This document shows, piece after piece, positions 29,530 through 46,960 of a stretch of 64,000 nucleotides of DNA. The position numbers were made by a program, and so were the translations under genes. Every line of letters begins with the position of its first letter. The stretch's first letter is position 1. The notes below the pieces were generated by a model, which had not been told where the DNA came from, made no database searches, and was given only the letters and a program-made list of their open reading frames with translations. The stretch is from Ornithinimicrobium sediminis. Lineage in GTDB: Bacteria; Actinomycetota; Actinomycetes; Actinomycetales; Dermatophilaceae. The stretch lies in NCBI RefSeq assembly GCF_021272345.1, contig NZ_JAJSDQ010000001.1:682001-746000 (forward strand), given 5' to 3'.

Positions 29530-29606
<77 letters not shown>

Positions 29607-29614
29607 TGGCACAA

Positions 29615-29662
29615 AAGGGCTGTTGACCTGCGCAAACGCAGGTTCAACGGCCCTTCTGTTTT
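29615..29662 (+). terminator. Rho-independent-type terminator just inside the element
   Basis: A stem of about 18 bp with one G-U pair and one bulge (29615-29632 with 29637-29655), a CAAA loop, then CTGTTTT. It starts 9 bases past the tRNA CCA. It therefore probably ends tRNA-Pro transcripts and shields the element from read-through. It lies inside the inserted DNA, so the element supplies it. Confidence 0.7.
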
Positions 29663-29668
29663 CCCGGT

Positions 29669-29690
29669 CGTGCCTTGAGCGTGCCTTGAG
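29669..29690 (+). repeat. Left arm-type tandem repeat
   Basis: Two adjacent perfect copies of CGTGCCTTGAG, 63 bases inside attL. A near-identical tandem pair (CGTGCCATGAA) is found inside the right end in the same orientation. Paired short repeats flanking the core site are the usual form of tyrosine-integrase arm sites. Confidence 0.6.
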
Positions 29691-30211
29691 ATTCGCCGTC
29701 CACCAGTCGGCTCGGTGAGCCCCCCCGGACCCCCGGGTGGCCAGCCCGGCCGGTGCCTGATCCGAGCGCCACCGCCCGCAGGTCCGGCCGTGCACCGCGT
29801 GGCACTTCCAGCCCCATGATGGGCGATGCCCACAGCTGTGCACCACCTCGACGTCGGTCACGTGCGTGGTCGCCGTCAGGCACGCGACGTTCCCAGGGAC
29901 CCGGCAGGCGCTGAGACCGTGACTGCCCGCTCAGATTCGTAGGCCTCGACCCAGGCAGACCGCACAGCGCCAGCACACTCACCTCGTCAGCCGACCACAG
30001 CGTCCAGTCGAGCGCAGCCTCCCGGTCCTCGCCCGAGGACCACCGCGACCGCTTGCCCGCGCACGCACATCCCCCTGCCGCGCTCTCAGCCTTCGCCGAC
30101 GGTCACCTCAGTCCTCGCTGCGCTCGATAAGGACACACCTGGTGCACTCGGCGAAATCTGTCGCAGTCTGGGTGACCCCCAGAGGGCTGCTGCTCCGCAT
30201 TGGGAGGTGTG
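29691..30211. other. Non-coding left end of the element, possible oriT
   Basis: About 520 bases before the relaxase gene with no convincing ORF. A TCTGGG-TGACC-CCCAGA hairpin is at 30167-30183, some 30 bases before the relaxase start. Transfer origins often lie here for MobF elements, but I cannot match a nic site. Confidence 0.3.
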
Positions 30212-33200
30212 ATGACGTTGCACAAGCTCGCCGCCGGGAGCGGGTACACGTACCTGACGAAGCAGGTCGCCGCCCACGACGCCACGGAGAAACGGCAGGT
30301 CGGGCTCGCCTCCTACTACGAGGAGAAGGGCGAGGCACCGGGGCGTTGGCTCGGTACCGGCCTGGCCGGTCTGGACCTGACCGTGGGGGATGTGGTCACC
30401 GAGGAGCAGATGAAGCTGCTGTTCGGGCAGGGCCGGCACCCCCGCGCCGACGAACCAGAGGCGGCTGAGCGTGGGTGGGGTGGGTTGGGGCGGGCGTTCC
30501 CGACGTTCGACGCAACGACCTTGCGGCAGGTGATCGCGCGGGCGTTCAGTGACCACAACACCGCCCAGGGGTTGGCCTGGAACCACCCGATCGCGGCGGA
30601 GGTGCGGGCGGTGATCCGCACCCAGGTCGCCCGCGAGGTGTTCGTGGACCGTCACGGCCGGGCGCCGGTGGATGAGGGCGAGCTGACGACGTTTGTCGCG
30701 TCGGCGTCGCGGCCGGCGCAGGTCCCGGTCGCGGGATATGACCTGACGTTCTCGCCGGTGAAGTCGGTCTCGGCGCTGTGGGCCCTCGCCCCGGTTGACG
30801 TTGCGAAGCAGGTGGAGGCGGCGCACGAGGACGCGGTCCGCGCGACGTTGGCGATGCTGGAGAAGGAGGTGTCGTTCACGCGGGTCGGGAAGGGTGGCAT
30901 CCGGCAGGTGCCCGTGGTCGGGTTGGTGGCGGCGGCGTTCGACCACCGCGACTCGCGCACCGGGGACCCGGACCTGCACACCCACGTCGTCGTCTCCAAC
31001 AAGGTCCAGTCGTTGCCCGAGGAGGGAGGCCGGTGGTTGACGCTGGACGGGCGGATGCTGTTCAAGGCCAAGGTCATGGCCTCCGAGCACTACAACACCC
31101 ACCTCGAAGCGAGCCTGGTCGACCGGCTCGGGGTCCGGTTCGTGGACCGCCCCGGCCCGCAGGGGCGTAGGCCGGTGCGGGAGATCGCCGGCATGGACGC
31201 CGGGCTGCTCGCGGTGTGGTCCAGCCGCCGGCACGCCATCGAGCTCCGCCAGCAAGACCTGGTGTCGGTGTTCCGGGGCGAGCACGGCCGGGCCCCGACG
31301 GCTATTGAGTCGTTGTCGTTGGCGCAGCAGGCGAACCTGGAGACCCGCCCGGCCAAACACCAACCACGGTCCGAGGCCGAGCAGCGGCGGGAGTGGTGGG
31401 CGCAGGCCAGCGCCCTGTACGCCGGGGGCGGGGGCGGTGGGGACGAGGCCGTCGCCAAGCTCATCGCTGCGGTGGTGGGGACGCACCAGGGACGCAACCG
31501 GGAACGCGGTGGGGACGGGGGCATCACCGCAGGTCAGCGGGTGGGGACGCTCCAGGGACGCGACCGGGAGCGGCGGTGTGGGGGCGTGGGTCCCCAGGAC
31601 GTCGCCGACCGGGTCCGGGAGGTGTTGGAGGGGTCGAGGGCGACGTGGCAGGTGTGGCACGTCCGGGCCGAGGCCCTGCGTCAGGCGCGCGCCGCACAGG
31701 TGCCGCGGACGGACCTCGACGACTATGTGCGGGACGTGGAGCGGCACGTCCTGACCGGGCTGTCCGTGCCCGTCGGGGTGCCACCGGAGCTGGGCGAGCC
31801 TGAGGTGCTGCGCCGCCCGGACGGTCAGTCCGCCCACACGGTGCACGGCAGCCAGGCGTACACGTCCCGGGCGATCCTGGCCGCCGAAGAGGAACTGTTG
31901 ACGTTGGGCCAGCGCCGGGACGGCCGGCAGGTGAGCCCCGCAGTGGTGGACGCCGTCCTGATCGGCCAGAACGCGGACGGGCTCAGCCTGGACCGGTCCC
32001 AGGCCGCCATGGTGCGCAACCTGGCCACGAGCGGGTGCCGGGTGCAGGTCGCGCTCGCCCCGGCCGGGGCTGGCAAGACCGCCGCGCTGCGTGTCCTCGC
32101 GCGGGCGTGGGAGGTATCCGGGGGCACCGTCCTGGGACTGGCACCGACCGCGGTGGCGGCTGACCAGCTCGGCCGCGCCACCAACGTCCCCGGGGACACG
32201 CTCGCCAAGTACCTTCACCAGACCACGCGCAACGCCGCGGACGGTCCCGGCCACGGGCACCAGGTGGGCCCGAACGTGGGGCCGGGGACGTTGGTGGTGA
32301 TCGACGAGGCAGGGATGGCCGGCACCCGCGACCTCGCGGCCGTCGTGAGGCATGTCGTCGGGGCCGGTGGCAGTGTGCGACTGGTCGGGGACGACCAGCA
32401 GCTGGCCGCCGTCGCCGCCGGCGGCGTGTTCGCTGACCTGGCCGAGCAGGGCCACGCGCACGGCACCACCGCCAACTTGTCCGAGCTTCACCGGTTCACC
32501 GACCCCGCCGAAGGCGCCGCCACCCTCGCTATCCGCGACGGTGACCCCGCCGCCCTGGACCACTACCTCGACCGCGGCCGCGTTCACACCGGCGACCTAG
32601 GCACGGCGACCGACGCGGCATACGCCGCCTGGGCCGCCGACCAGCAGGCCGGGCTCTCGAGCCTGCTGCTCGCGGCGACACGGGACACCGTCCGCGACCT
32701 CAACCAACGCGCACGCCAGGACCGCCACGCCGCCACCGGTCGACCACCCGGGCGCGAGGTGGCCCTGGTTGACGGCACCCGAGTCAGCGCAGGCGACACC
32801 GTCATCACACGTCTCAACGACCGGCGCCTGGGCGTCGGGGACGGGTCCTCGGTCAAGAACGGCGACCGGTGGCACGTCCTCGCCTGCCACCCCGACGGCA
32901 GCGTCCGCGTGGAACGCCACGACACCAGAGCCAGAAGCAGCACCGCTCGCGCCGACCTCCCCGCGGGGTACGTGGCCGCACATGTGCAGCTGGGGTATGC
33001 CAGCACGATCCATGGCGCGCAGGGCGCCACCGTGGACACCACCCACACCGTCCTCACCGGGGTTGAGACCCGTCAGGGGCTGTACGTGGCCCTGTCCCGC
33101 GGCCGGCAGACAAACCACCTCTACCTCGGGTCCCCCACGCCAACGTTGGACGGTGTTGGCCCGAAGGTGGCGGAGCCTGCGGCCGACCCACGGGAGGTGC

Positions 33201-34030
33201 TCACCGACATCCTCGCCCGGGACGGCCGTGCACAGTCCGCGATGACCGTCGAGCGGGGCGACGCCGCACGAGAGCTGCGGCAGGCGGTGCTGGCCTACCA
33301 GGACGCCCTTCCGGTCCTGGCCCAGCAGCACCTCGGAGGTGAGCGGATGGCTGCGCTGGACGACGCGCTGGACCGGTGGATCCCCGGCCTCACGCAGCAA
33401 CCGGCGTACCCGCACCTGCGGGGACAGCTCGCGCTGCACTGGGTCGACGGGACCCACCCGGAGACCGTGGTCGAGCAAACCACCTGGTACCGCGGCATGC
33501 AGTCCCTCACTGAGGCCGACGACCCCGCCGCCGCCCTGGCCTGGCGCGTCGCCGGCGCTACCTCGCCGTCGTACCGGGACGCGCCGCTGCCCTGGCTTCC
33601 CGACATCCCACCCGTCCTACGACAGGACGCGCAGACCAGCGACTATCTCGACCGGCTCACCCACCGAGTCGACATGCTCAAGCACCGGGTCACCGACGAG
33701 GCCCAGCAGGCCGGTGCCGCTAACCGCACGCCCTGGCAACGGGCGCTGCCCCCGCACGTCGACGACCAGCTGATCGGCGACCTCGCCGTCTATCGCGCCG
33801 CCCACGGCATCCCACCCACCGAGCCCACCCCCACCGGTCCACCCACGAAGGAACCCGACGCAGCCAGACACCAGACCCGACTCAACCGGCGACTCAGCGC
33901 ACCGTCTTCGGTCTTCGGCAGACCGACGGCAGACGCTGAGCGGTGGAAGCTACGAACCAGCCAGCGACAAGCCGAGCTCCATCGGCTCCACCAACACCCC
34001 TCACGCGACGTGACCGGACCCTCCTGGTGA
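30212..34030 (+). CDS. MobF-family conjugative relaxase-helicase (TraA/TrwC-like)
   Basis: A 1272-residue protein from ATG 30212 with GGGAGG upstream. The N-terminal TrwC relaxase domain begins with tyrosines 12 and 14 (possible nicking residues; SYYEE follows near 38) and has the metal site FDHRDSRTGDPDLHTH with His245, His256 and His258. A low-complexity Gly/Arg stretch with repeats lies at about 405-455. The C-terminal half is a RecD2/UvrD-type helicase with Walker A APAGAGKT (Lys622), VVIDEAGMAG as Walker B, VRLVGDDQQL and a final STIHGAQGATVD and YVALSRGRQ. It would nick and unwind the element for single-strand transfer. Length and order are normal for MobF. Confidence 0.93.
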   Translation: MTLHKLAAGSGYTYLTKQVAAHDATEKRQVGLASYYEEKGEAPGRWLGTGLAGLDLTVGDVVTEEQMKLLFGQGRHPRADEPEAAERGWGGLGRAFPTFDATTLRQVIARAFSDHNTAQGLAWNHPIAAEVRAVIRTQVAREVFVDRHGRAPVDEGELTTFVASASRPAQVPVAGYDLTFSPVKSVSALWALAPVDVAKQVEAAHEDAVRATLAMLEKEVSFTRVGKGGIRQVPVVGLVAAAFDHRDSRTGDPDLHTHVVVSNKVQSLPEEGGRWLTLDGRMLFKAKVMASEHYNTHLEASLVDRLGVRFVDRPGPQGRRPVREIAGMDAGLLAVWSSRRHAIELRQQDLVSVFRGEHGRAPTAIESLSLAQQANLETRPAKHQPRSEAEQRREWWAQASALYAGGGGGGDEAVAKLIAAVVGTHQGRNRERGGDGGITAGQRVGTLQGRDRERRCGGVGPQDVADRVREVLEGSRATWQVWHVRAEALRQARAAQVPRTDLDDYVRDVERHVLTGLSVPVGVPPELGEPEVLRRPDGQSAHTVHGSQAYTSRAILAAEEELLTLGQRRDGRQVSPAVVDAVLIGQNADGLSLDRSQAAMVRNLATSGCRVQVALAPAGAGKTAALRVLARAWEVSGGTVLGLAPTAVAADQLGRATNVPGDTLAKYLHQTTRNAADGPGHGHQVGPNVGPGTLVVIDEAGMAGTRDLAAVVRHVVGAGGSVRLVGDDQQLAAVAAGGVFADLAEQGHAHGTTANLSELHRFTDPAEGAATLAIRDGDPAALDHYLDRGRVHTGDLGTATDAAYAAWAADQQAGLSSLLLAATRDTVRDLNQRARQDRHAATGRPPGREVALVDGTRVSAGDTVITRLNDRRLGVGDGSSVKNGDRWHVLACHPDGSVRVERHDTRARSSTARADLPAGYVAAHVQLGYASTIHGAQGATVDTTHTVLTGVETRQGLYVALSRGRQTNHLYLGSPTPTLDGVGPKVAEPAADPREVLTDILARDGRAQSAMTVERGDAARELRQAVLAYQDALPVLAQQHLGGERMAALDDALDRWIPGLTQQPAYPHLRGQLALHWVDGTHPETVVEQTTWYRGMQSLTEADDPAAALAWRVAGATSPSYRDAPLPWLPDIPPVLRQDAQTSDYLDRLTHRVDMLKHRVTDEAQQAGAANRTPWQRALPPHVDDQLIGDLAVYRAAHGIPPTEPTPTGPPTKEPDAARHQTRLNRRLSAPSSVFGRPTADAERWKLRTSQRQAELHRLHQHPSRDVTGPSW
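31475..31574 (+). repeat. In-frame imperfect repeat within the relaxase gene
   Basis: Two 34-base units (31475-31508 and 31541-31574) start GTGGGGACGC, then CCAGGGACGC, and differ at only a few positions. They are 66 bases apart, so 22 codons, and encode VGTHQGRNRERGG and VGTLQGRDRERRC. They fall in the linker between relaxase and helicase domains. Slippage expansion of a flexible linker is the simplest reading. Confidence 0.6.
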
Positions 34031-34450
34031 CCGGCCCTGACCGGCGACGACCCCGCGAGACGGTGGTCGATACATCGCGACATGCCGAATACAGGGCGCC
34101 TAGGTGAACGTCATCCTCCGAGCCTCGGCCACCGCCGAAAGCAGTGGAAACGGTTGTTGCGACGTTGTGCGTCATCACGCACCCTCGTGCAGAGCAAGCG
34201 GGACAACGCCGCTGGCCATGTGGTCAAAGTCTGCAAACCCGCCCTGTCGGATGGCATCCCGTCGCTCGGCTGCTAGACGTGGCGATGATCGAGCTCAGCG
34301 ATGACGCCTTCGCGCCGGCGGCCGACTGAACGCAATGCAGGGCGTCGGCGCTCACTTCGAGAGGGTTGCCGACACCCCAATCGGCAGTTCTTCGACAACA
34401 GGACTCCCTTTCGTGACATGCTCGGTCCGCCGCCGGAGGGAAGGGATGCG
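34031..34450. other. Gap between relaxase and ParB-like gene
   Basis: About 420 bases with only short unconvincing ORFs. It probably holds the promoter of the ParB-like gene; no clear elements or inverted repeats were seen. Confidence 0.4.
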
Positions 34451-35965
34451 ATGACTTACGTGCAGTTGCCAATGTTGGAGGTCGACGTCGGAGACCTGTT
34501 GCTCGACCTCGCCAACTATCGGATCCCCACGCGTCCCGACGACGAGGCAGCCGCCTTGAACTACCTCTTCGCGGAGGAAGACGTCTTAGGCGCGGCGAAA
34601 CTGATTCTGCGAGACGGCTACTTCGACAACGAGGTCCCGATCGCTGTTGAGGAGGACGGCGCATACGTCGTGCTTGAGGGCAATCGCCGGGTCAGCGCGC
34701 TAAAGGGCCTCCTCGACCCGAACAGCGTCCCTTCGCACGCGCACGACTTGAGAATGCTGCTGAAGCGGTACGCCGTAGAGGCCGAGGACCTGCCCAAGGC
34801 CATCCGAGTCCTGGTCGCCCCGTCACGGGAGGCAGCGAATCCCCACATCGCCCGACTGCATACCACTGTGCCGAAAAAGCGTTGGAGCCGCGACCAGCAG
34901 GCCAACTACTACTACTCCCTGCTCGGTCCGGGCGTTGCGGTCGACAACATCAAGGCGGACTATCCCGACGTCGACGTGGTCAGGTTCATCAAGATGGCCG
35001 AGATGCGACGGTTCCTGTCCGGGGTCGCCTACCGGGATCCGAGTCTTCGCAACTACGTTACGGGCCCCGGACTGGCGATGTCAGCGTTCGAGTATGCTTA
35101 CCGCAGCGCCGACATCGCGGAAGCGATCGGCGTTTCCTTCAACATCGACGGTCACGTGCGCCCAACCACAAAACGTCCTGAGGCGATCGCTGCTGACCTC
35201 ACCGACCAACAGCGCGCGGCGATTGAGTACCTCATGATCGAGTTCCGTGCGAAGCGGCTCAACACTCGCTCAACCGAGTTCAAGAAGGCGACCCCCGAGC
35301 ATGCCGTACTGGTCGCCGAGCTCGCCGGTAATCGCGATGACGCTCGACAGGACGAGGCTAGCGGCAGTGCCGACCAGGAGACCACGTCGGAGGTAGCCAA
35401 CCCGGACGATCGGCCGAACAGTGGCAGCCCATCGGGGGCCGACGCGCCGGACCAAGGCAGCACCGACACTGCGTCAGACGACGAGCGGGAGTCGGGCAGT
35501 GCAGATGGCCGCGGCCCCAACCACCCCGACACCAAGGCCACACTGTCACTCACGGGTCTTGACTACACCACCCACACTTCGGCCAACCTGCAGCGCCGCT
35601 ATCACGAGCTGCGCAAGGTGAACCTTAAGGAGAACCCTGTCGCGGCCGCGCTCCTGCTGCGCTCGGTGTTGGAGACCACCATCAAGTTCCACTTTGAAGG
35701 CACCTCAACCCCTGCCGTCGGACAGCTCAGCGAGACGATCAAGGTCGTCATTTCGGCGTACGGGAAGACCAAGAGCCTTCAGCACTCAATTAACCGCATC
35801 CAGTCCGGTGGAACGGGAGTGCCAGGGAGCGCCCAATGGTTCAACCTGGCCTCACACAGCGCTGATCTCCTGGTCGATACCAAGCAGGTACACGCCGCGT
35901 TTGGGCTGCTTGAGCCGCTGCTCAGGCACCTTCTTCGGCCGCCGGCAAGCGGGCCCGCCTCTTGA
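34451..35965 (+). CDS. ParB/Srx-fold N-terminal protein with C-terminal helical domain
   Basis: A 504-residue protein from ATG 34451, with GGAGGGAAGGG upstream. The N-terminus has the ParB-like layout: LEVDVGDLLLDLANYRIP, then PIAVEEDGAYVVLEGNRRVSALK with EGNRR at 76-80. This is the GxxRxxA-type nucleotide-binding motif of ParB/sulfiredoxin domains, which can be CTPases or nucleases. A polar, acidic linker (about 298-365, many D/S/E/N) leads to a C-terminal domain of about 140 residues with ARLLLRSVLET-like helices, similar to HEPN/abortive-infection C-termini. It converges with, and overlaps by 44 bases, the methylase gene. A restriction or defense role is inferred; true plasmid partitioning is unlikely without ParA. 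Confidence 0.7.
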   Translation: MTYVQLPMLEVDVGDLLLDLANYRIPTRPDDEAAALNYLFAEEDVLGAAKLILRDGYFDNEVPIAVEEDGAYVVLEGNRRVSALKGLLDPNSVPSHAHDLRMLLKRYAVEAEDLPKAIRVLVAPSREAANPHIARLHTTVPKKRWSRDQQANYYYSLLGPGVAVDNIKADYPDVDVVRFIKMAEMRRFLSGVAYRDPSLRNYVTGPGLAMSAFEYAYRSADIAEAIGVSFNIDGHVRPTTKRPEAIAADLTDQQRAAIEYLMIEFRAKRLNTRSTEFKKATPEHAVLVAELAGNRDDARQDEASGSADQETTSEVANPDDRPNSGSPSGADAPDQGSTDTASDDERESGSADGRGPNHPDTKATLSLTGLDYTTHTSANLQRRYHELRKVNLKENPVAAALLLRSVLETTIKFHFEGTSTPAVGQLSETIKVVISAYGKTKSLQHSINRIQSGGTGVPGSAQWFNLASHSADLLVDTKQVHAAFGLLEPLLRHLLRPPASGPAS

Positions 35966-36821
35966 GGATGTCGGCCACCGCAGGTGATGCGACCAGGAGT
36001 TCCTCAGCCCGGCCGGGATACCTCGCCGAGTAGTTGAGGTCGAGCGTCGCCTGGAAATGGCCAACGTAAAGGCCTTCTGCTAGAGGCGCGAGGTCGTAGG
36101 TCATCAGCCAGTCAGCCGTGGCTATTTCGTTCACCACCTTGGACAGAGCCCGGTGATCGCGCCCATCAAAAGCGTTCAGATAAAGCTGCGATCCAGCCTG
36201 GATGTATGGCGGGTCGATGTACATGAAAGTCGATCGGTTGCTGCCGTAGCGTCGGATCACGCTGCGTCCGTCAAGGTCCGAGACCTCTATAGCCGGCGCT
36301 AGCCTGCCGATCGCTGCAAGTCGTTCAGTCAGAGTGGCCCGATTGAACCGTGCATCGATCTTGTATTTGCCCTGCTGGGCCTTCCCGCCAATCACACCCG
36401 CGTTGAGCACACCGGACCTGTTGGTGCGGTTGAGGTAGAAGAAGGCTCTGCCAAGCGTAAAAGCGTCGCTGGATTTGTTGCGATATATCGCGCGTTGTTT
36501 TTGCCACTCCTCAAGGGTCAGTGGAACACTGTTGACCCAGTCAAGGAACGCCGCGTTCTCCTCGGTTACAGACTTCCAAAAGGCGAAGACAGCCGGGTCG
36601 ATGTCGTTGATAACGAGCTTCTCGACGCACCCTTCGCGAAGCAATGCGATGCCAGCGCCCGCCCCACCTGCGTAAGGCTCGACGTACGTGACATCTGTGG
36701 CGCATAACTCAGCTATCAGATCGGCAAACAGCCCGGCAAGCGACGCCTTCCCACCGGGATAGCGCAAGGGCGATAAGGTGCCAAAGCGGCGCCCCGCGGC
36801 CACCCGGACGTTCGTTCTCAC
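35922..36821 (-). CDS. D12-class DNA adenine methylase (Dam-like)
   Basis: A 299-residue protein. GTG 36821 overlaps the zinc-ribbon gene stop (GTGA). SAM-binding motifs: RYPGGK at 20-25, VEPYAGGAGAG at 47-57 and the catalytic DPPY at 203-206. These define the Dam/M.DpnII-type N6-adenine methylase family. The target sequence cannot be read from the protein. It overlaps the convergent ParB-like gene, so the two are tightly organised. No dedicated restriction enzyme is recognisable, which makes the ParB-like protein the obvious candidate partner. Confidence 0.9.
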   Translation of the reverse strand: MRTNVRVAAGRRFGTLSPLRYPGGKASLAGLFADLIAELCATDVTYVEPYAGGAGAGIALLREGCVEKLVINDIDPAVFAFWKSVTEENAAFLDWVNSVPLTLEEWQKQRAIYRNKSSDAFTLGRAFFYLNRTNRSGVLNAGVIGGKAQQGKYKIDARFNRATLTERLAAIGRLAPAIEVSDLDGRSVIRRYGSNRSTFMYIDPPYIQAGSQLYLNAFDGRDHRALSKVVNEIATADWLMTYDLAPLAEGLYVGHFQATLDLNYSARYPGRAEELLVASPAVADILKRRARLPAAEEGA

Positions 36822-37045
36822 GCTCTTGCCTGATGAAGGCGCTGACGATAGGCGGCGGTCCGACAGCGCCCTGAGCAGTATCGAGCGTCTGCACGCGCTG
36901 GGAATGGTGTTCCGCAGACTGCACACTGCCCCCAACTCTTGTCTCGACGCAGCCGCTCGAGGCGGACTTGCATGCTGAGGTCCTGCAGAGCGTCGTCTTC
37001 GAGGTCAGCCACGGAGTCGGCCCAGTCGGGGATGCGCACGTTCAC
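36818..37045 (-). CDS. Small zinc-ribbon protein, probably leaderless
   Basis: A 75-residue protein. The C-terminal half holds C41-x2-C44 and C57-x3-C61 in CAVCGTPFPARADARYCSGRC, an FCS-like zinc finger, then RTAAYRQRLHQ. The N-terminal half is acidic and helical. GTG 37045 is chosen: TATAAC at 37057-37052 ends 6 bases before it, the spacing of a leaderless promoter, and no ribosome site exists. Translation is coupled to the methylase. It may be a DNA-binding autoregulator of the pair, given the palindrome abutting its start. Confidence 0.7.
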   Translation of the reverse strand: MNVRIPDWADSVADLEDDALQDLSMQVRLERLRRDKSWGQCAVCGTPFPARADARYCSGRCRTAAYRQRLHQARA

Positions 37046-37065
37046 GTGACAGTTATAGCTGTCAC
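37046..37065. promoter_or_regulatory. Palindromic operator overlapping a leaderless promoter
   Basis: GTGACAG-N6-CTGTCAC forms a perfect 7-bp inverted repeat directly before the zinc-ribbon start codon. On the minus strand its centre is the TATAAC -10 box. A bound protein would block transcription of the zinc-ribbon/methylase operon. The likely binder is the zinc-ribbon protein itself or the ParB-like protein. Confidence 0.6.
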
Positions 37066-37495
37066 TCCTAGCTTTTGGGAGCCTATCGACGGCGTGTTGA
37101 AGGTCCAACCCATCAGCGGCGGGTCGACTGGGCATGCGATCTGAAGACACGACGGGTCACGGCCCAACGGCGAGCCCGCGGCTCGTACAGCACACCTCCG
37201 TCTCAGTGCTAGGAGGGCGGCGACAACCGTCGCCAAGGTTCACAAGTATGCAGCAGGGAGGTGACATGGCCACGTCGGGTACTGCCCCACCCTGTCGTCC
37301 GCGACGACCATGTCCTCTCCCCCTCCCACTGGGCACCCGAACCTCGTCAACGGTGACCCTTGCCAGAGCGAACTTCACTGCGGTGCAGGCTTCTGAGGAC
37401 CCCTGCACCAAGGTATGGCCAAACGTCTTCGTCCCTGGTGAGGCACAGGCACCAGCAGCACATCGCCCGGCGGGACCTCTGAAGACCACAGACAG
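37066..37495. other. Gap between methylase operon and nucleotide cassette
   Basis: About 430 bases. An ATG at 37266 has a good GGGAGGTGAC site before it, but its frame is Pro/Arg/Thr-rich, resembles no protein I know and runs into the NUDIX gene. It may be debris. No other feature seen. Confidence 0.35.
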
Positions 37496-37975
37496 GTGTG
37501 CCACCCTTGGCTCGTGCTTACCGAGCCACCGACGCCAGGGAAGGCGGGAGACGTCGCCGTCGCTGCGTTGCTACGTGGGTCAAGTGTCCTTCTCGTGCGC
37601 ACCCGAAGCTTCCCCAATCTCTGGCAACCGCCTGGTGGCAAGATCCATCCATACGACGCGTCTCCTGAAGAGGCCATCCATAGAGAGCTATCCGAGGAAC
37701 TCGGACTTCAAATCTCACATGAAGACCTGATCCTCTTCGGAAGCCAGCCAGCCGATTTAGTTGAAGGAACGGTGTACTTCTTCGTAGGCAGGCTTGGAGA
37801 CCGGCTGGCCATACATCCCGATACAGATGAGCTGCTAGAAACCCAGTGGGCAGGACTGAAAAATGCGACTCGGATGCCTATGGGAACTGCAACTCGGCGA
37901 TTTCTAGAAGAACTACAGTTATCATTGAGTGCAACCCCGGAACGGATCGGCGAGAAAAATGAACACAACAGCTAA
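37496..37975 (+). CDS. NUDIX hydrolase of the nucleotide cassette
   Basis: A 159-residue protein from GTG 37496. The beta-strand DVAVAALLRGSSVLLVRTRSFPNLWQPPGGK precedes the NUDIX box, EEAIHRELSEELGL, with REL and EE metal ligands intact. This is MutT/ADP-ribose-pyrophosphatase-like in form; the substrate is probably a nucleotide. The codons and base composition are clearly AT-richer than the host: the 60 bases at 37681-37740 hold 29 G or C. It overlaps the next gene by 17 bases, so the two are coupled. Confidence 0.82.
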   Translation: MCHPWLVLTEPPTPGKAGDVAVAALLRGSSVLLVRTRSFPNLWQPPGGKIHPYDASPEEAIHRELSEELGLQISHEDLILFGSQPADLVEGTVYFFVGRLGDRLAIHPDTDELLETQWAGLKNATRMPMGTATRRFLEELQLSLSATPERIGEKNEHNS

Positions 37976-38780
37976 CGGTTCCCCAGATGCGCCAAAGGGC
38001 ACGCTTACGGATGCGGACATTATCGCACTGGCCCATGAGGGCCGATTAATCGTCAATGGGTTCAGTGAGGCGCGGATCAAACAGGCCTGTTATGAGTTGA
38101 GCGCGTCAGAGACGTACTACGACTTGGCCGCGCCTGACCGTCCCCGGCAGGCCGGAGCCGACGGCAACATATTGCTGAAGCCCAAGCAGATCTTGGTCTT
38201 CATTACGGAGGAAGAGCTGCAACTTCCGCCCGACATTTTGGGGCGGGTGTTAAGTAAAGGTCAACTTTTTAGCCTAGGGGTGGTGCCAGTCAACACATAC
38301 GCCGACCCTGGTTTCTCCGGTAAACTCGGGATAGTCTTGATCAACGCATCTAATGATTACTTAAGAATCCCTCCTGGCATGACGATAGCGAAGATCGAAT
38401 TCGTGCGACTGCACCACGACGTTTCACGGCCATACGACGGTCAGCACGGATACCAAACTCACATTTGGCCAATAAGGCACGACCTCAAGCTGACGCCACA
38501 AGAAATAAAAGACGACAAACGCATAGAAGACCCGACGGCTGAGGTAGTTCGAGCATATGGTCCTGACTTCGGGGCCGTGGTCGAACGGGTCTTTCGATAC
38601 GAGCGACGATTGCTCCTCGCCGCCGCGGTGTACCTGACGACACTTGTTGGCGTCATCGCGTTGGCCTTCGGGCGGGAAGAGCGACTCGGAATTGTGGCGG
38701 CGGTGGTTCTTGGAATCGTGTCGAACCTCGGCTTTTGGCTGCTCACGTGGTTCGCTACCAACCTACGACGCAAAGGCTGA
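37959..38780 (+). CDS. dCTP-deaminase/dUTPase-fold protein with C-terminal membrane helices
   Basis: A 273-residue protein from ATG 37959. Residues about 17-180 follow the Dcd/dUTPase trimer fold: LTDADIIALAHEGRLIVNGF, then LSKGQLFSLGVVPVNTYADPGFSGKLG at 98-124 and PPGMTIAKIEFVRL at 138-151. Against E. coli Dcd the residues for Ser111, Arg115 and Glu138 fall at Gly101, Ser105 and Val126 by my hand alignment, so deaminase activity is probably lost. Two hydrophobic helices (about 219-238 and 243-263) anchor the C-terminus in the membrane. A nucleotide-sensing role is plausible. It sits between NUDIX and kinase genes in one operon. Confidence 0.78.
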   Translation: MNTTANGSPDAPKGTLTDADIIALAHEGRLIVNGFSEARIKQACYELSASETYYDLAAPDRPRQAGADGNILLKPKQILVFITEEELQLPPDILGRVLSKGQLFSLGVVPVNTYADPGFSGKLGIVLINASNDYLRIPPGMTIAKIEFVRLHHDVSRPYDGQHGYQTHIWPIRHDLKLTPQEIKDDKRIEDPTAEVVRAYGPDFGAVVERVFRYERRLLLAAAVYLTTLVGVIALAFGREERLGIVAAVVLGIVSNLGFWLLTWFATNLRRKG

Positions 38781-38788
38781 CTGGACTC

Positions 38789-39412
38789 TTGACACCACCA
38801 CGAATCGCAGTGATGGGAAGCATTGGGTCCGGTAAAACGACCCTGGCGCGGATTCTCGGTCGCGCCCTGAAATTGCCGGTGCTGCTGGAATCGCCCGAAG
38901 ATAATCCGTTTCTCGCGAGAATGAAGCACGATGCCGCGCGCTGGTGCTTCCCCAATCAACTATGGTTCCTGTCGGAGGCCTACAGCACAAGCGCCAAGTT
39001 GAACGAGCATGGTGGCGTCATGGATCACTCCGTTGAGGAGGTGGCCCTTGTGCATTCGCCGGAGTTCGCAAAGCTCGGCTGGCTAAAGGACGAAGACTCT
39101 TCTCTTCTCGACCAAGTACACCATCGGATGATGGCTACGATTGTGGCCCCGGATCTCTTCGTGGTCCTCTCCACTCCGCCTAGCGTCCTGATTGACCGTG
39201 TGCGTGAGAGAAGTCGGCCCGGTGACTCCATTCCGACGACCGAGTACTTGTCCGCCGTCTCTCAGAGACGCGAGTCGGTGTTGGGACGCATCCCTCTTCC
39301 GGCATGCTATGTCGACTCGCATGCACTCGACTTCCGGACTGGGCAGGGGCGGGCGCAGGTTGTAAAGTTGGTAGAAGAAGCGATGGAGAGGAACCGAGAA
39401 GGAGCCTGTTGA
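38789..39412 (+). CDS. Deoxynucleoside kinase family protein
   Basis: A 207-residue protein. The P-loop GSIGSGKT is at 10-17 in the numbering from TTG 38789, followed by PVLLESPEDNPFL (Glu34 in the place of the catalytic acid), NQLWFLSEAY and a C-terminal DLFVVLSTPPSVLIDRVRERSRPGD with an Arg-rich lid. This is the dCK/dGK/dAK family. The usual DRS/ERS is DHS at 79-81. The start is uncertain: TTG 38789 avoids overlap with the upstream gene, whereas ATG 38735 would overlap it by 46 bases. It probably phosphorylates deoxynucleosides or nucleotides. Confidence 0.82.
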   Translation: MTPPRIAVMGSIGSGKTTLARILGRALKLPVLLESPEDNPFLARMKHDAARWCFPNQLWFLSEAYSTSAKLNEHGGVMDHSVEEVALVHSPEFAKLGWLKDEDSSLLDQVHHRMMATIVAPDLFVVLSTPPSVLIDRVRERSRPGDSIPTTEYLSAVSQRRESVLGRIPLPACYVDSHALDFRTGQGRAQVVKLVEEAMERNREGAC

Positions 39413-39588
39413 GGCCGTGCGCCACCCGTACAGCCCTTCGACCGAGGACAATGACGCTGAATTGCCGTTCCGTATCTACGGGTTGAGGGGTGCTATAGGG
39501 GAACACCTGATCGAGTCGGCAGGCACGGAGGGTTCCCTGACAGAGCTGGTCGTAAAGACACGTTATTGCCGCTGTCGGGCACATGCCG

Positions 39589-40140
39589 TTACTCACCGAC
39601 CCGGGGCAGTTCATCGTTCCCCAAGTCATCTCGGGCCGCATGTAGGAAGTCTGTGAGAGTAAGGTCAAATTGCTTTGCAGCGGCAGCTCGCTTGCGCTCA
39701 ATCCTTCTCCGCTTCAGCGGTCCAGCGAGAGATGACGCACCTGGGATGGCCAATGCAGCCAATGCTCGGAAGAGCGCATCAGCGCGATCCTGCACTGCCT
39801 CAGTCCCGACCTCGCGGACCTCCTCCCACGCTGTCATGACATCGAGGAGATCCTCATTGAAGCGGTCCAATAGTTCAGCGTGCATAGGGAGCGCTGTGGC
39901 GTGAGTCATCAGGGCGAGAGGGTGGGTTCGCACTGCGTGCACTCGCTGGACCAGTTGCAGCCTGAACCGCGTACGCATGCACGTCGTCACCAGCCGCCGG
40001 TAGGCGTTGCGACGGTCCGCCGGCTCCCGCGCCCGCTTCTGCAGGGAGGAGACACCGATGCGCCCCAGCGTCTCGATGGCTAGTTCCATTGCCTTGACGG
40101 CCGCAATCTCGATCACGGGGCCCATCCTCGCCTTGGCCAC
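39589..40140 (-). CDS. Hypothetical helical protein
   Basis: A 183-residue protein from GTG 40140, with GGAGGG 7 bases upstream. It is alpha-helical and rich in A/R/L, with VKAMELAIETLGRIG, a run of basic positions (KRRRIERKRAAAAKQF) near the end and no cysteine motif. I recognise no family. It is convergent with the kinase gene. It might be an effector or structural protein of the cassette, but nothing proves that. Confidence 0.5.
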   Translation of the reverse strand: MAKARMGPVIEIAAVKAMELAIETLGRIGVSSLQKRAREPADRRNAYRRLVTTCMRTRFRLQLVQRVHAVRTHPLALMTHATALPMHAELLDRFNEDLLDVMTAWEEVREVGTEAVQDRADALFRALAALAIPGASSLAGPLKRRRIERKRAAAAKQFDLTLTDFLHAARDDLGNDELPRVGE

Positions 40141-40230
40141 CGACAGACCCTCCGAAGTCCAAGGGATGCCTTGGGCTCGGGCGCAGCAACGGACAGGCTG
40201 CCGACATGCAGTCGTCACGACACCTGAGTC

Positions 40231-40581
40231 TCAGACGCACGCTCTTGCCACCCGGAGGACGCTAGCCCTCGGTGCGTCTAATATTGCCGTGGGGCGTCCG
40301 GAAAACGAGGTGGCAAGGCTCGGCTCCTGCCGCGTGCCCCTGACGCCCTGGCGAACCGCCAGTCGTACGACGAAGTAGAGGCTCGGCGTGAGGAGGGAAG
40401 CGTTGTCGGTCGGGCCTTGCGCGTCGAGGCCCTGCATGACGGCGGAAGCCGCAGCCTTCCCGGTAATCATGCGCGCCAGAACCCTCGCGGCGACCGCCGC
40501 CAGGCGGTAAACCTGAGGTGCTAACGGGCGGATCCACCCCACCTCGGGCGGTGCCTCTTGAGCGACCGGCGCCAATGACAT
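40231..40581 (-). CDS. Hypothetical protein, weak support
   Basis: An open frame of 116 codons from ATG 40581, starting MSLAPVAQEAPPEVGWIRP. It has a plausible helical middle (LAAVAARVLARMITGKAAASAVM) but no ribosome site at good spacing. It lies 23 bases from the divergent gene at 40605. It could be noise. Confidence 0.3.
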   Translation of the reverse strand: MSLAPVAQEAPPEVGWIRPLAPQVYRLAAVAARVLARMITGKAAASAVMQGLDAQGPTDNASLLTPSLYFVVRLAVRQGVRGTRQEPSLATSFSGRPTAILDAPRASVLRVARACV

Positions 40582-40604
40582 CTCACAGGGAACGGAGACA
40601 GGTG

Positions 40605-40838
40605 ATGCTCGGCAAATTCTTGCGACGGTTGGGAGGCTCGGACCACTCGGTTGGAGCCACCAAGACCCGGACGCTATACCACTGGCAATGCGAATGCGGA
40701 GCACACTCTCGCGGGGGCGATCCGCTGGAGAGCGACGCCGAGTACAACGGCCAGCGCCACCAGTGGAGCAAGGGCCTCGACCACCCGAGGCCGACAACCT
40801 ACTCAGAAGAGGTGGAGGTCCCTGCGGATTGGCCGTGA
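40605..40838 (+). CDS. Small hypothetical protein with CxC motif
   Basis: A 77-residue protein from ATG 40605 with GGAGACAGG upstream. It starts MLGKFLRRLGGSDHSVG, then HWQCECGAHSRGGD (CxC), and ends in an acidic EEVEVPADWP. A possible one-half zinc ribbon. No family recognised. Confidence 0.5.
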   Translation: MLGKFLRRLGGSDHSVGATKTRTLYHWQCECGAHSRGGDPLESDAEYNGQRHQWSKGLDHPRPTTYSEEVEVPADWP

Positions 40839-41203
40839 CTTGTGAGGCCAGCGGTGGTCGCATTGAGCGATGACTTTTCGCGGCTTTGGCCGGGAGTACA
40901 ACGTGGATAACGCGAGCCCGGGCGACGCGTTCTGTGCCGCCTCATACCAGTGGGTGACACCTGTGATGGTGTCGCGGCATGCACCAAGGACCCGGGACGC
41001 GACCTCGGCCGGCCCTGGCGCGCCGAAGGTCAGGGTGATCACGTTCATGCGGCAGTCTTCTGCGTGGCTGATAGGGCTCTCACGCCGAAGATGTGATTAC
41101 AGCCGCGGGCGCGATGATCCGGACCAGTAGGGCACGTTCGGGGAAGCGCCCGCAGGCTGCATTCCGGACCATGGCCAGCCGTCGCCGAGTCCCGACGCGG
41201 CCC
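40839..41203. other. Gap with short doubtful ORFs
   Basis: About 365 bases. A minus-strand frame from ATG 41048 (MNVITLTFGAPGPAEVASRVLGACRD) extends 81 codons, looks somewhat protein-like but has no ribosome site and overlaps other frames. I do not call it. Confidence 0.35.
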
Positions 41204-41998
41204 TCAAACCAGCGAGTGCTCGTAGTCCCGCGCCGTCGCAACCCAGTCGGACACAATGCGCACGCACGGCAGCTGCAATGACAAAGGCACCACCTCGTTG
41301 ACGCCGAACTCGAGCCACGGCGTACAGTCCGTGTGCGGGTAGGTCGCAGCAACCTCCGAATCGACCAGAACCAAGCTGAAGGGGGCCCACTGCACCATCG
41401 CCGACAAAGTCTTCTCCGGCTTCGCCGGCGGTGACCCGTCCAACAAAACCGACGCGGCCACGCGCCGGTGAGCGCCATGAATCTCTCGGCGTTCCTCCCA
41501 CGGGGTAACGCCCATCAGGAACCTCATTCCAGCATCCGCGCTCAACGGCTCACCGGTCCGCACAGCCTCGACGAAATCCGGGTGCGTCTGCCACAAGTTC
41601 TCGGCAAGCACGACCATGCCGGCCAATGCAGCACGCGCAAACCGGCCAGGCCGGACCCGTGGCGCAGCGAACTGAACCACCCGTCGCCTGCGCGCCGCCG
41701 GCGACTCCACCAGCATCTGAACGAGGCTCTTAGCCCAGAGGATGTACTCGTCATCCCAAGGCGACGTGTCTGCCCGACACTGCTCGCAGTGTCCGTAAGG
41801 CGCGAGACCGCCCGGTCTCCCCATCGACTCAAGCACGTACGAGCCGTTCGGACCCACGACCATGCGCTTGCCGATGCCACTGTTGAACGCCCCACGCGGC
41901 GGGACATGGGTCTTCGTCAGCTTCGTGACCCTTCCGCACAACCCGCAAGGACGCCGAGGTTTGTGAGTCCTCGGGTTCGTGGGCAGGAAACCGCTCAT
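41204..41998 (-). CDS. Hypothetical protein with HNH-like zinc pattern
   Basis: A 264-residue protein from ATG 41998. The N-terminus has C18-x2-C21, then THVPPR with His31, and C71-x2-C74. This treble-clef arrangement (CGLCG, TKTHVPP, HCEQC) resembles HNH-associated zinc sites in phage and defense proteins, although the catalytic His-Asn-His is not clear. The rest (VQFAAPRVRP, MGVTPWEERREIHGAH and a beta-rich C-terminus) is not recognised. It directly follows the decayed toxin gene on the same strand. Confidence 0.6.
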   Translation of the reverse strand: MSGFLPTNPRTHKPRRPCGLCGRVTKLTKTHVPPRGAFNSGIGKRMVVGPNGSYVLESMGRPGGLAPYGHCEQCRADTSPWDDEYILWAKSLVQMLVESPAARRRRVVQFAAPRVRPGRFARAALAGMVVLAENLWQTHPDFVEAVRTGEPLSADAGMRFLMGVTPWEERREIHGAHRRVAASVLLDGSPPAKPEKTLSAMVQWAPFSLVLVDSEVAATYPHTDCTPWLEFGVNEVVPLSLQLPCVRIVSDWVATARDYEHSLV

Positions 41999-42004
41999 GC
42001 CCGC

Positions 42005-42386
42005 TCAACCCATTCCGCTGGACCAGTGTTCCGTCTCGAGGAACAGGGGCCGGGCGGGCGCGGATGAGGCCAGGCTCCACGTGCACAGGCGCGTCTGCCA
42101 ACCGTCGGGAAGTGTCGACGTGCTCACCGAGATCCCCTCGGCGTAGATCCCCTCGGCAGCGTGCATTGCGAGAGCTCACCGATAGCGCCCTCGATCATGT
42201 CGGCCTTCTTTCGGTCCGGGCCGTCGTCCAGGGGATGTCGACCTCCATGGAGGCCGTGGCCTGAGGCGGCAGCTCGTCCTCGTCCCACGTGCCCAGGACT
42301 GCCTGCGCGCCCATGACCAGGACCCTCGGGTCATTAGTGACGTCGCACGCAGCTTTGAGTAGGCGCGCCAGCTGCTGGCGATTCAC
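42005..42386 (-). pseudogene. Remnant of a DUF6036-like nucleotidyltransferase (toxin side)
   Basis: Three frames carry consecutive parts of one protein. Frame one from GTG 42386: NRQQLARLLKAACDV, RVLVMGAQAVLGTW, ATASMEVDI. Frame two: LDDGPDRKKADMIEGAIGELSQ. Frame three: AEGIYAEGISVSTSTLP, DGWQTRL, ending at 42005. The order GxQA(I/V)LG ... SxExDI ... GWxxRL is that of DUF6036/AbiEii-like nucleotidyltransferase proteins. Two frameshifts and a short C-terminus make it nonfunctional. GTG 42386 overlaps the HTH gene stop (GTGA), so they formed an operon. Confidence 0.6.
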
Positions 42387-42879
42387 GCGGACGGCTTGCG
42401 CCTATCGCGGAAGGTACGCAGCGCCTGCATCCGTTCGGTCTGGTTCAGGACGCCCGCGAACGGGGAGTTCTGGCGCAGGTCGCGCGCACGAGGACTCGTG
42501 CTGAGGACGATATCAACGGTCTCCCCGAGTCCCCTGGCGAGGATACTGTCCCACTCGCGGAGTTACTCGACCGTCCTGCCGTCCTGGCGGTGCATCGAGC
42601 TCCAGCGCCGGATGTTCTCCCGCGCCAGACCCATGACTTCCTCCGGCCTGGTGAGCAGGTGGGTGAGCATCGCCTGGTGCATCCACAGCTGCTTGCGCTG
42701 CGCGTCGGTCATCGCCTGGCCCTCCAGCAGCGCGTCGACGTCTGAGCGACGGATCCGCCGGTGCGCCCCTACCTTATGCTGGGCAGGTCGCCCCGCGTGC
42801 ACAGGTCGACGACGTGCTGGCGCGAGACGCCGAGCAGCTCAGCGACCGCTCCCGTCTTCACCATCGTGTCGTTCTCCAT
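42383..42879 (-). pseudogene. Frameshifted HTH DNA-binding protein (antitoxin side)
   Basis: From ATG 42879 (GAGG upstream) the frame reads MENDTMVKTGAVAELLGVSR, then QHVVDLCTRGDLPS, an excisionase-type helix-turn-helix. It stops at a TAG in place of the usual VGxHRRI. The other frame continues VGAHRRIRRSDVDALLEGQ. An in-frame TAA near 42563 then breaks the chain before LREWDSILARG, and RQNSPFAGVLNQTERMQAL follows. The rest matches a known HTH partner of DUF6036 genes. At least one frameshift and one stop are present. Confidence 0.65.
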
Positions 42880-42969
42880 ATGCCCATCCTCACGTAAACA
42901 CCAAAAACGCAACAAGATCCAACGCGCGAAGCGGCCGTGGGTGTCCCGCTGCTGAGCGGGCGCGTCCGC

Positions 42970-44130
42970 TCATCGTCCTTCGTCGCTCGGGAGACCGGCC
43001 TGCACCATCAATGACAGTGCCTCAGCGATCCTCGCGTCTCGGTCCGCCGCGGCGTGCTGGTAGCGCAGTGCCGCCTTGTGCGTCGAGTGGCCAAGCCGCG
43101 CCATGAGCTCAGCCAACGTCGCTCCTGCCTGCGCCGCGAACACCGCTCCCGTGTGTCGCAGGTCGTGCCAGCGCAGGTCAGGCCGCCCGGCCGCGGCCCG
43201 CGCCGGGTGCCATGCCTTGTTGAGGGTAGACACGGCCAGGTGCTGAGCGGGGTTGCTCTTGGCGTGGAACAACAGCGCGTCCGGTCGCTTGTCTTCCATG
43301 GCGTCCAAGTGCGCCTGGATGGCCGGCATGATCGCGGACGGCATCGTGACGGCGCGGATACCGGCCTCGCTTTTGGGGTCGCCCACGACGAACCGTGGTC
43401 GCCGGCGCGCCGCCACCGTCTCAGGGTCCTCTCCAGGCAGGCGCACCACGGCGCGCGTCACATGGACGACGTTGCCGGACAGGTCCTTGCGTCGCAGCTC
43501 CGCGACCTCGCCCCAGCGGAGTCCGCCCCAGGCGGACAGCAGCACAGCGGCCCGCAGCTGAGGCGGCATGTTTTCGATGATCGTCGCCAGCTCCGCCGGG
43601 GTCGCCGGCTGGATGCGGTGGCGGCGACGTGGCGGTGAGCCCGCCTCGCGCAGCCGGCAGGGGTTGACGTCGATCAGGGGTGGGTCGTCCTTCCGGGCGG
43701 ACTCCAGGATCGTGCGCAGCAGAGCGTAGGCGTGGGCTCGAGCCGTGGCCTTGTCCGGGTCCATGCGGCGCCACCACTCCCGCACCGCGTCGGTGGTGAT
43801 CGCGTTCACGGTGAGCCGGCCGAACGTGGGAAGGAGGCAACGGTCGAGCTGACCGGCGTAGAGCACCTGCGTCCGCGGCTTCAGGTCCTGCCGCTCCTCC
43901 AGCCACTCGCGGGCGTACTCGCCGAAGGTGACCGACCGGCGTTCCCTCTCCCGGGTGAGGATCCACCCGGTGTCGAGCTCCGTGCGCTTGGTGCGCAGCC
44001 ACGCCTCGGCGGCGTCCTTGCTCGCGAACGTGCGCGGCGCCTTGTGCTCCAGCGCGTCCCAGGTGTAGCGCGCCTGCCACTTCCCGGACGGGAGTCGGCG
44101 CACCGAGCCGAACCGTCGCTCGCGTGCCAT
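42970..44130 (-). CDS. int: Tyrosine recombinase, integrase of the element
   Basis: A 386-residue protein. The N-terminal AP2/arm-binding domain (about 1-60) has GSVRRLPSGKWQARY; a SAM-like core-binding domain follows (67-160). The catalytic domain carries Arg205 (GGLRWGE), Lys253, H322-D-L-R325-H-T, His348 (LGHST) and Tyr357 (LRYQHA). All residues needed are present, so it is probably active. It lies 155 bases from attR, with tandem arm-type repeats just before its start. It integrates the element into tRNA-Pro. Confidence 0.94.
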   Translation of the reverse strand: MARERRFGSVRRLPSGKWQARYTWDALEHKAPRTFASKDAAEAWLRTKRTELDTGWILTRERERRSVTFGEYAREWLEERQDLKPRTQVLYAGQLDRCLLPTFGRLTVNAITTDAVREWWRRMDPDKATARAHAYALLRTILESARKDDPPLIDVNPCRLREAGSPPRRRHRIQPATPAELATIIENMPPQLRAAVLLSAWGGLRWGEVAELRRKDLSGNVVHVTRAVVRLPGEDPETVAARRRPRFVVGDPKSEAGIRAVTMPSAIMPAIQAHLDAMEDKRPDALLFHAKSNPAQHLAVSTLNKAWHPARAAAGRPDLRWHDLRHTGAVFAAQAGATLAELMARLGHSTHKAALRYQHAAADRDARIAEALSLMVQAGLPSDEGR

Positions 44131-44142
44131 GCCGCCGCCTTT

Positions 44143-44164
44143 CGTGCCATGAACGTGCCATGAA
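44143..44164 (+). repeat. Right arm-type tandem repeat
   Basis: Two adjacent perfect copies of CGTGCCATGAA between the integrase start and attR. They differ at two of eleven bases from the pair at the left end and share orientation. A partial extra copy (CGTGCCATG) lies at 44123-44131 over the start codon, so integrase binding could repress its own gene. Confidence 0.6.
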
Positions 44165-44284
44165 CTATGGTCACTTGTGCATCATCCTGTCCCCTCCTGA
44201 CAAAGGTAACAGTGTGACCTTCGTGCAGTTCAAGGGGCATATGCGCTGATGGTCACAGGGAGCCAAAATGGGCCATGTGTCTAT

Positions 44285-44307
44285 TTCAAATCCTGTCACC
44301 CCGACCA
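44285..44307 (+). repeat. attR, partial copy of the tRNA-Pro 3' end
   Basis: Identical over 23 bp to the tRNA 3' segment at attL. The sequence upstream of it is not tRNA-like, so this is a displaced target fragment, not a second tRNA. The following 277 bases up to the M64 gene stop hold no recognisable gene. Confidence 0.9.
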
Positions 44308-46918: not shown

Positions 46919-46960
46919 CTGCAACTCCTCCCTCGGGTACGGCTCAGATGTCGTGGTCCT

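Follow-up and report, generated by a model that had tools for sequence, protein, structure and literature searches.

A membrane-anchored dCTP-deaminase-fold protein in a patchily distributed candidate anti-phage gene module

Introduction

Can a small cluster of nucleotide-handling genes inside a bacterial mobile element serve in defence and, if so, what would its membrane-bound member do? The question is raised by a three-gene cassette at positions 37496-39412 of a 64,000-nucleotide stretch of Ornithinimicrobium sediminis DNA (the window; NCBI RefSeq assembly GCF_021272345.1, contig NZ_JAJSDQ010000001.1, positions 682,001-746,000 of the forward strand). The cassette encodes a NUDIX hydrolase, a protein of the dCTP-deaminase/dUTPase fold with two C-terminal transmembrane segments (DCD-2TM) and a deoxynucleoside kinase (dNK). 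A first-pass annotation, made from the letters of the sequence, had regarded this trio as a separately acquired unit with a possible role in defence or nucleotide signalling. Here we report that DCD-2TM recurs in at least eight phyla within a broader module that contains a flavoprotein at every other locus examined, and we propose, with a probability of roughly 0.45, that the cassette belongs, in divergent form, to an undescribed anti-phage (or anti-mobile-element) module that moves horizontally and in which DCD-2TM would act as a nucleotide-gated membrane receptor and effector.

Results

Profile searches bear out the reading of three nucleotide-handling genes on one strand. The NUDIX hydrolase gene (37496-37975, + strand; 159 amino acids (aa)) matches PF00293 (E=6e-17), the DCD-2TM gene (37959-38780, +) matches PF22769 (E=4e-16) and the dNK gene (38735-39412, +) matches PF01712 (E=2e-22), each over the curated cut-off, and all three reading frames are open over these coordinates, as annotated. 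Two of the genes, NUDIX and DCD-2TM, do overlap, by 17 nt. The start codon of dNK is uncertain (TTG at 38735, GTG at 38747 or TTG at 38789, all in one frame); the first would give a 46-nt overlap with DCD-2TM and the last lies just past the DCD-2TM stop. The NUDIX protein keeps the R-E-x-x-E-E core of the NUDIX box and is 40% identical over 125 aa (blastp) to the NUDIX protein of an Acrocarpospora DCD-2TM locus (L009), and dNK has an intact P-loop (GSIGSGKTT) and is the only PF01712 match in the O. sediminis genome. PADLOC models match both proteins weakly (PDC-S07, E=8e-11, for NUDIX; VakA, E=1e-4, and mad8, E=1.5e-4, for dNK) and the window DCD-2TM not at all at E<=0.01. Scanning the window for promoters and terminators gave nothing beyond chance, and an Rfam scan of it gave tRNA and nothing else.

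The cassette is AT-richer than the mobile element that carries it, as had been pointed out: its G+C content is 56.5%, against 65.8% for the whole element and 73% and 71% for the flanks, and the count of 29 G/C among the 60 nucleotides at 37681-37740 is exact. Only five of 1242 equal-length sliding windows are as low in G+C or lower, and all five overlap the cassette. Composition therefore favours the separate arrival that the annotation had asserted, without proving it, because element sequence adjoining the cassette, at about 35-37.5 kb, is lowered as well (60-64% G+C).

The predicted membrane tether of the dCTP-deaminase-like protein was also supported. DCD-2TM consists of a DCD-fold domain (about residues 14-172), a helical linker and two C-terminal transmembrane segments, which hydropathy places at residues 218-236 and 243-261 and which an AlphaFold2 model (22 sequences; mean pLDDT 85) renders as two long helices. 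Two hydrophobic C-terminal segments were found in 26/28 DCD-2TM sequences, with one each in L008 and L024. The top Foldseek matches of the model are the DCD-fold dUTPases 9ln0, 9ln3 and 8y1w.

Residue by residue, DCD-2TM departs from the enzyme whose name it would automatically receive. Among 26 aligned sequences (the window's included; L003 and L023 excluded), the position of the deaminase glutamate is held by Val in 23, Ile in two and Thr in one, and by Glu in none; the window protein has Val126. Glu is present at this position, defined by alignment, in the genome's own canonical dcd, in L054 and in PDB 4xjc, and we take it to be the catalytic E138 of the E. coli enzyme, going by the titles of 1xs4 and 2j4q. 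The phosphate-binding motif R/K-S-S-x-x-R (R-S-S in 8y1w) has become K-G-x-x-x-S, with Gly101 replacing the first Ser and Ser105 the second Arg. K100, G101, S105 and D116 are invariant in 26/26 sequences, the residue after Lys100-Gly101 being variable, and Asp116 is thus retained in the window protein. DCD-2TM misses the cut-off of the dCTP deaminase model TIGR02274 (69 versus 92.8 bits) while passing the broader PF22769. With the Glu gone in every aligned member and the phosphate-binding motif rewritten, these sequences suggest that 'dCTP deaminase' is probably wrong as a description of function, and depletion through dCTP deamination is likewise disfavoured by the missing catalytic Glu.

A housekeeping role appears unlikely, given a second PF22769 gene (169 bits) in the host genome and a further DCD-family match over the cut-off in 16/21 carrier genomes checked; we accordingly rejected a plain metabolic dcd duplicate. 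The host genome also holds a third, shorter dUTPase-like PF22769 match. Separately, we noted that the molecule names of PDB entries 8y1w and 9ln0 read dCTP deaminase and their titles dUTPase, and that both lack the deaminase Glu in the printed alignments.

Besides the window, DCD-2TM occurs at 27 loci (4 plasmid, 20 genome and 3 viral contigs) spread over at least eight phyla (Bacillota, Actinomycetota, Pseudomonadota, Thermodesulfobacteriota, Nitrospinota, Planctomycetota, Bacteroidota and Verrucomicrobiota), which are intermixed in the DCD-2TM tree. Close relatives lie on five plasmid records from Priestia, Rhizobium and Sinorhizobium, four of which entered the locus set. The genome loci were found through two peptide patterns among 84,980 species genomes, which gave 23 loci before L027 (truncated) and L029 and L030 (distant) were set aside, the remaining 20 being a lower bound. 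The set contains near-copies (L003/L004, L006/L026, L021/L023 and L031/L032), and gene calls for most loci are longest open reading frames. The six weaker of the 11 plasmid matches and seven phage matches were called ordinary dCTP-deaminase/dUTPase-type proteins from low identity alone.

The distribution of DCD-2TM is rare and patchy. In actinobacterial samples with overlapping genome draws, a DCD-2TM-level match was found in 1/297 genomes at the order level (E<=1e-12) and 1/394 at the class level (E<=1e-30), in both cases the window's own genome; at the phylum level 64/396 genomes matched at E<=1e-15, and the only match exceeding 75 bits (349 bits) was again the window's own. Viral contigs searched with the window DCD-2TM as sole query yielded no relative.

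Profile searches on six-frame translations around each locus revealed the partners of DCD-2TM. A PF00724-type flavoprotein of the old yellow enzyme family is in the cluster at 27/27 other loci, downstream of DCD-2TM at 26 and upstream at L019. MazG is present at 20/27 loci (as a fragment only at L003, and at only E=8e-7 at L016) and NUDIX at 1/27, the Acrocarpospora locus; one or the other sits between DCD-2TM and the flavoprotein at 20 loci. A nucleotide kinase lies beside or inside the cluster at 8/27 loci, leaving 19 without one. It is of thymidylate-kinase type at L013, L015, L017, L021, L023 and L024 (Pfam-tested at L013, L017 and L021, and assigned through phmmer and a profile at the others; on the opposite strand at L024) and of another P-loop kinase type at L016 and L018, the L016 protein having no Pfam match over cut-off. 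Where a pyrophosphohydrolase is missing (six loci), a kinase is present in five cases; at least one of the two is found at 26/27 loci, and L019 has neither. NUDIX and dNK supply this feature in the window. The flavoproteins retain H-A-A-H-G-Y and three C-terminal cysteines, and the MazG proteins retain their acidic motif residues.

Pairwise distances between DCD-2TM proteins correlate with those between flavoproteins (r=0.83, 24 loci) and between MazG proteins (r=0.92, 16 loci), with 0/2000 permutations as high in either case. The module genes thus travel together, although such correlations cannot tell co-function from joint inheritance. What co-occurs outside the strain is not the exact trio of the first-pass annotation but a broader module comprising DCD-2TM, a flavoprotein, and MazG/NUDIX and/or a kinase.

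Two variations on this arrangement were observed. Proteins of 128-149 aa adjoin the thymidylate-kinase gene in clusters without MazG (L017:2588-3034, L021:10344-10730 and L024:6850-7242); that of L021 has no Pfam match, and these small proteins might replace the pyrophosphohydrolase. The distant DCD proteins of the excluded loci L029 (7959-9375) and L030 (4185-5665) have one clear C-terminal membrane segment and Thr at the Glu position, and are followed by a PF01613 flavin reductase, not the old-yellow-enzyme type, perhaps representing another branch of this scheme.

We compared the surroundings of DCD-2TM with those of other PF22769-family genes. The test set comprised 92 genes from 15 of 23 listed loci, and the control 104/107 genes (two long and one short dropped) from 15 genomes, 12 of which are common to both sets; the ranges on either side were about 5.1-6.6 kb and 5.5 kb, respectively, with a minimum of 180 aa in both. 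At E<=1e-20, the DCD-2TM neighbours matched 93 PADLOC models and the control neighbours four, of RtcR and CARF5 types, with many overlapping models per gene, so that model counts exceed gene counts. A defence neighbour was traced at 7/15 loci, five of them in common genomes. The neighbours include both Gabija genes at L005 (whose helicase entered the test in truncated form), PDC-S28 at L014, PDC-M62A and PDC-M62B at L020, a type I methyltransferase at L010, other methyltransferases at L006 and L011, CARF6 at L025 and, less strongly matched, a type IIG gene at L028.

On one viral contig (L031), a repressor gene precedes the module by 49 nt, and integrase and primase genes are close by. The spot after the phage repressor is a usual site of genes expressed in the lysogen. 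On another (L033), the module is close to baseplate genes. Together, these contexts make a defence role of the DCD-2TM module likely. The defence or signal-nucleotide role first suggested for the cassette gains from the mobile element, plasmids, phage contigs and defence neighbours, with its dCTP-deamination variant disfavoured.

Beside the module at L006 (9151-13953) and L026 (10180-15114) lies a similar four-gene block encoding proteins of 307 aa and 603 aa, a metallophosphoesterase and a Dam-type methyltransferase. At L006, neither the 603-aa protein nor the metallophosphoesterase has a PADLOC match at 1e-5, and the block is possibly another undescribed restriction-like system.

The cassette itself is carried by a 14.7-kb element in tRNA-Pro (29584-44307), bounded by 23-bp exact direct repeats. 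The left repeat (29584-29606, +) is the 3' end of tRNA-Pro(CGG) (29530-29606; ARAGORN) and the right repeat is at 44285-44307 (+), adjoined by the tyrosine recombinase/integrase gene of the element (42970-44130, -; XerA/XerC-type NCBIfam matches, all sub-cut-off). A MobF-family relaxase/helicase is encoded at 30200-34030 (+; NF041492, E=9e-72, over cut-off). Between it and the cassette, and adjoining the latter, is a PD-Lambda-5-like pair: an A-like protein and defence candidate (34301-35965, +; PADLOC E=5e-31) and a B-like D12-class adenine methyltransferase (35922-36935, -; PADLOC E=2e-93; PF02086). The best-scoring stretch of the A-like protein spans only residues 52-204 of 554, so the gene perhaps represents a divergent subtype. 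Two further element genes, at 39589-40218 and 41204-41998 (both -), have no Pfam match over cut-off; the product of the latter has a C-x-x-C close to its start. Just beyond the element, 44588-46924 (-) encodes a 779-aa protein with a sub-cut-off match to the aKG-HExxH peptide beta-hydroxylase domain.

Discussion

A DCD fold without deaminase chemistry, a membrane anchor, and flavoprotein and nucleotide-enzyme partners together point to a receptor coupled to a membrane effector. DCD-fold relatives are trimers. A DCD-2TM trimer could bind a deoxynucleotide, perhaps a modified one, and relay binding through its six membrane helices, so that the infected cell would be permeabilised or depolarised. 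The kinase and flavoprotein would produce or shape the ligand and MazG/NUDIX would clear it in uninfected cells; in the window form, kinase and NUDIX would have to suffice without the flavoprotein. We model such a ligand, made and removed by the partners, on dITP in Kongming as described in a review (PMC12948488). The boldest version, a new form of immune signalling in which a flavin reductase and a kinase make a reduced or differently altered pyrimidine deoxynucleotide in infection, MazG/NUDIX lowers it otherwise and a silenced dCTP-deaminase trimer with six membrane helices opens or disrupts the membrane on binding it, is considerably more doubtful than the general proposal.

Several observations weigh against this proposal. 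Gene association does not reveal mechanism, and we infer the ligand, the trimer and the pore. Eight of the 15 scanned neighbourhoods have no traced defence neighbour (one untraced PDC-S08 match may belong there), and PADLOC matched 11 of the 20 neighbours chosen by eye, leaving nine unmatched. Asp116 is the Asp of the D-P-G-F/W motif used by dUTPases, which makes hydrolase activity possible. The trio of NUDIX, DCD-2TM and dNK is unique to the window in the data searched, since no dNK turned up at any other locus. The window also lacks the otherwise universal flavoprotein, the reason for which we call it a divergent member, and elsewhere in its genome there is one flavoprotein match, weak and partial (51.5 bits). 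Finally, dNK has D-H-S where its nearest solved relative has D-R-S (PDB 8puu, by alignment).

The main rival to a receptor is nucleotide hydrolysis: DCD-2TM would be a membrane-bound dUTPase-like enzyme, with no receptor function, that together with MazG/NUDIX drains nucleotides needed by phages, much as the dGTPase and dCTP-deaminase defences do. The closest structures are DCD-fold dUTPases, two of which (8y1w and 9ln0) share the absence of the deaminase Glu, and the MazG acidic motifs and NUDIX core are retained; the invariant Asp keeps plain hydrolysis viable. However, the Ser-Ser and second Arg of those dUTPases are lost, with Gly101 and Ser105 invariant in their stead, and hydrolysis leaves the membrane anchor and the flavoprotein unexplained. 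We consider this rival unlikely, if a serious one.

A different challenge concerns the window copy alone, which might be a broken or chimeric remnant, having lost its flavoprotein and captured an unrelated dNK, and be inactive even if the family is functional. The missing flavoprotein, the lack of any dNK at the 27 other loci and the D-H-S motif are the grounds for considering this, and searches of the window for flavoprotein or MazG remnants returned short matches at E>=0.03, none within the cassette. The idea of the trio as a recurring system fails here too: in the six-frame translated surroundings of 29 other DCD loci, the window dNK has no relative at E<=1 and the window NUDIX has one at L009 only. 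Against plasmids and phages, dNK found distant enzymes, with at most 33.5% identity among the matches listed (the best 20 of 36 and the best 15 of 36), and NUDIX found no match among plasmids. The plasmid dNK match with the best E-value among those listed (L099) was dropped; it adjoins thymidylate synthase and dfrA45. Yet the three frames are open and overlapping or tightly packed, the Acrocarpospora cluster has a NUDIX in common with the window, and the module is variable elsewhere, with a pyrophosphohydrolase absent from six loci and a kinase from 19. The window copy is perhaps a hybrid or a degraded version, but an outright inactive remnant strikes us as improbable.

Least probable of all is base modification or salvage, in which the partners make an unusual deoxynucleotide to be incorporated or metabolised, DCD-2TM is a membrane scaffold and the defence neighbours are hitchhikers in mobile islands: the partner set is akin to nucleotide-modification chemistry, H-A-A-H-G-Y is conserved and a uracil-like ring would be a plausible substrate for such a reductase, but no recurring polymerase, glycosylase or transferase partner was noticed (no systematic search for them was made), the other DCD-family matches in 16/21 carriers indicate that DCD-2TM is not just the dcd of these genomes, and the scattered distribution, frequent defence neighbours and phage contigs argue against it.

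If the receptor and effector proposal is correct, an old fold of house-cleaning enzymes has become a membrane-bound nucleotide receptor, flavin chemistry joins nucleotide-based immunity, and the automatic label 'dCTP deaminase' is misleading for DCD-2TM proteins. The breadth of the module, its natural occurrence in genera that are easy to handle, and its clear predictions (ligand and membrane phenotype) add to its interest.

Relation to known systems

The DCD-2TM gene set is apparently undescribed, and the novelty lies in the gene set itself. In agreement with the first-pass annotation, which knew of no such system, we found no description in the open-access literature searched, though an earlier description elsewhere is possible, and no PADLOC model at E<=0.1 for DCD-2TM, MazG or the flavoprotein of L004, L005 and L006. 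MazG, dUTPase and nucleotide-kinase domains are among the predicted, unvalidated defence domains in passages of the DefensePredictor paper (PMC13092281), which mention neither a DCD protein in the membrane nor a partner flavoprotein nor the gene order of the module; neither 'flavin' nor 'deaminase' occurs in its main text.

In fold, DCD-2TM resembles dCTP deaminase and bifunctional dCTP deaminase-dUTPase (4xjc, 4a6a) and archaeal dUTPases (8y1w, 9ln0), with Foldseek E-values of about 1e-12, and has the D-P-G-F/W motif in common with them. It differs in its two C-terminal membrane segments, the lost Glu, K-G-x-x-x-S and a score below the TIGR02274 cut-off. Like the dCTP deaminase and dGTPase depletion defences, it places a nucleotide enzyme in a defence setting, but, unlike them, the window protein is unmatched in PADLOC. 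The deaminases described in defence have the zinc-dependent cytidine-deaminase fold.

Among signalling systems, Kongming has families (KomA, KomB and KomC) that differ from the partners of DCD-2TM, a comparison made without a Kom-specific search. The likeness lies in the logic: as described in PMC12948488, a kinase acts with another enzyme to produce a non-canonical deoxynucleotide, which a binding protein senses. Kongming's effector depletes NAD, whereas DCD-2TM would use its membrane helices, in a module whose signalling is itself conjectural. Next to the module we noticed no nucleotide cyclase of the kind that would recall CBASS, though no search aimed at one was made, and the DCD fold sets DCD-2TM apart from the membrane effectors of CBASS; in their design, however, effectors such as Cap15 come close to it, joining a beta-rich nucleotide-binding domain to membrane helices.

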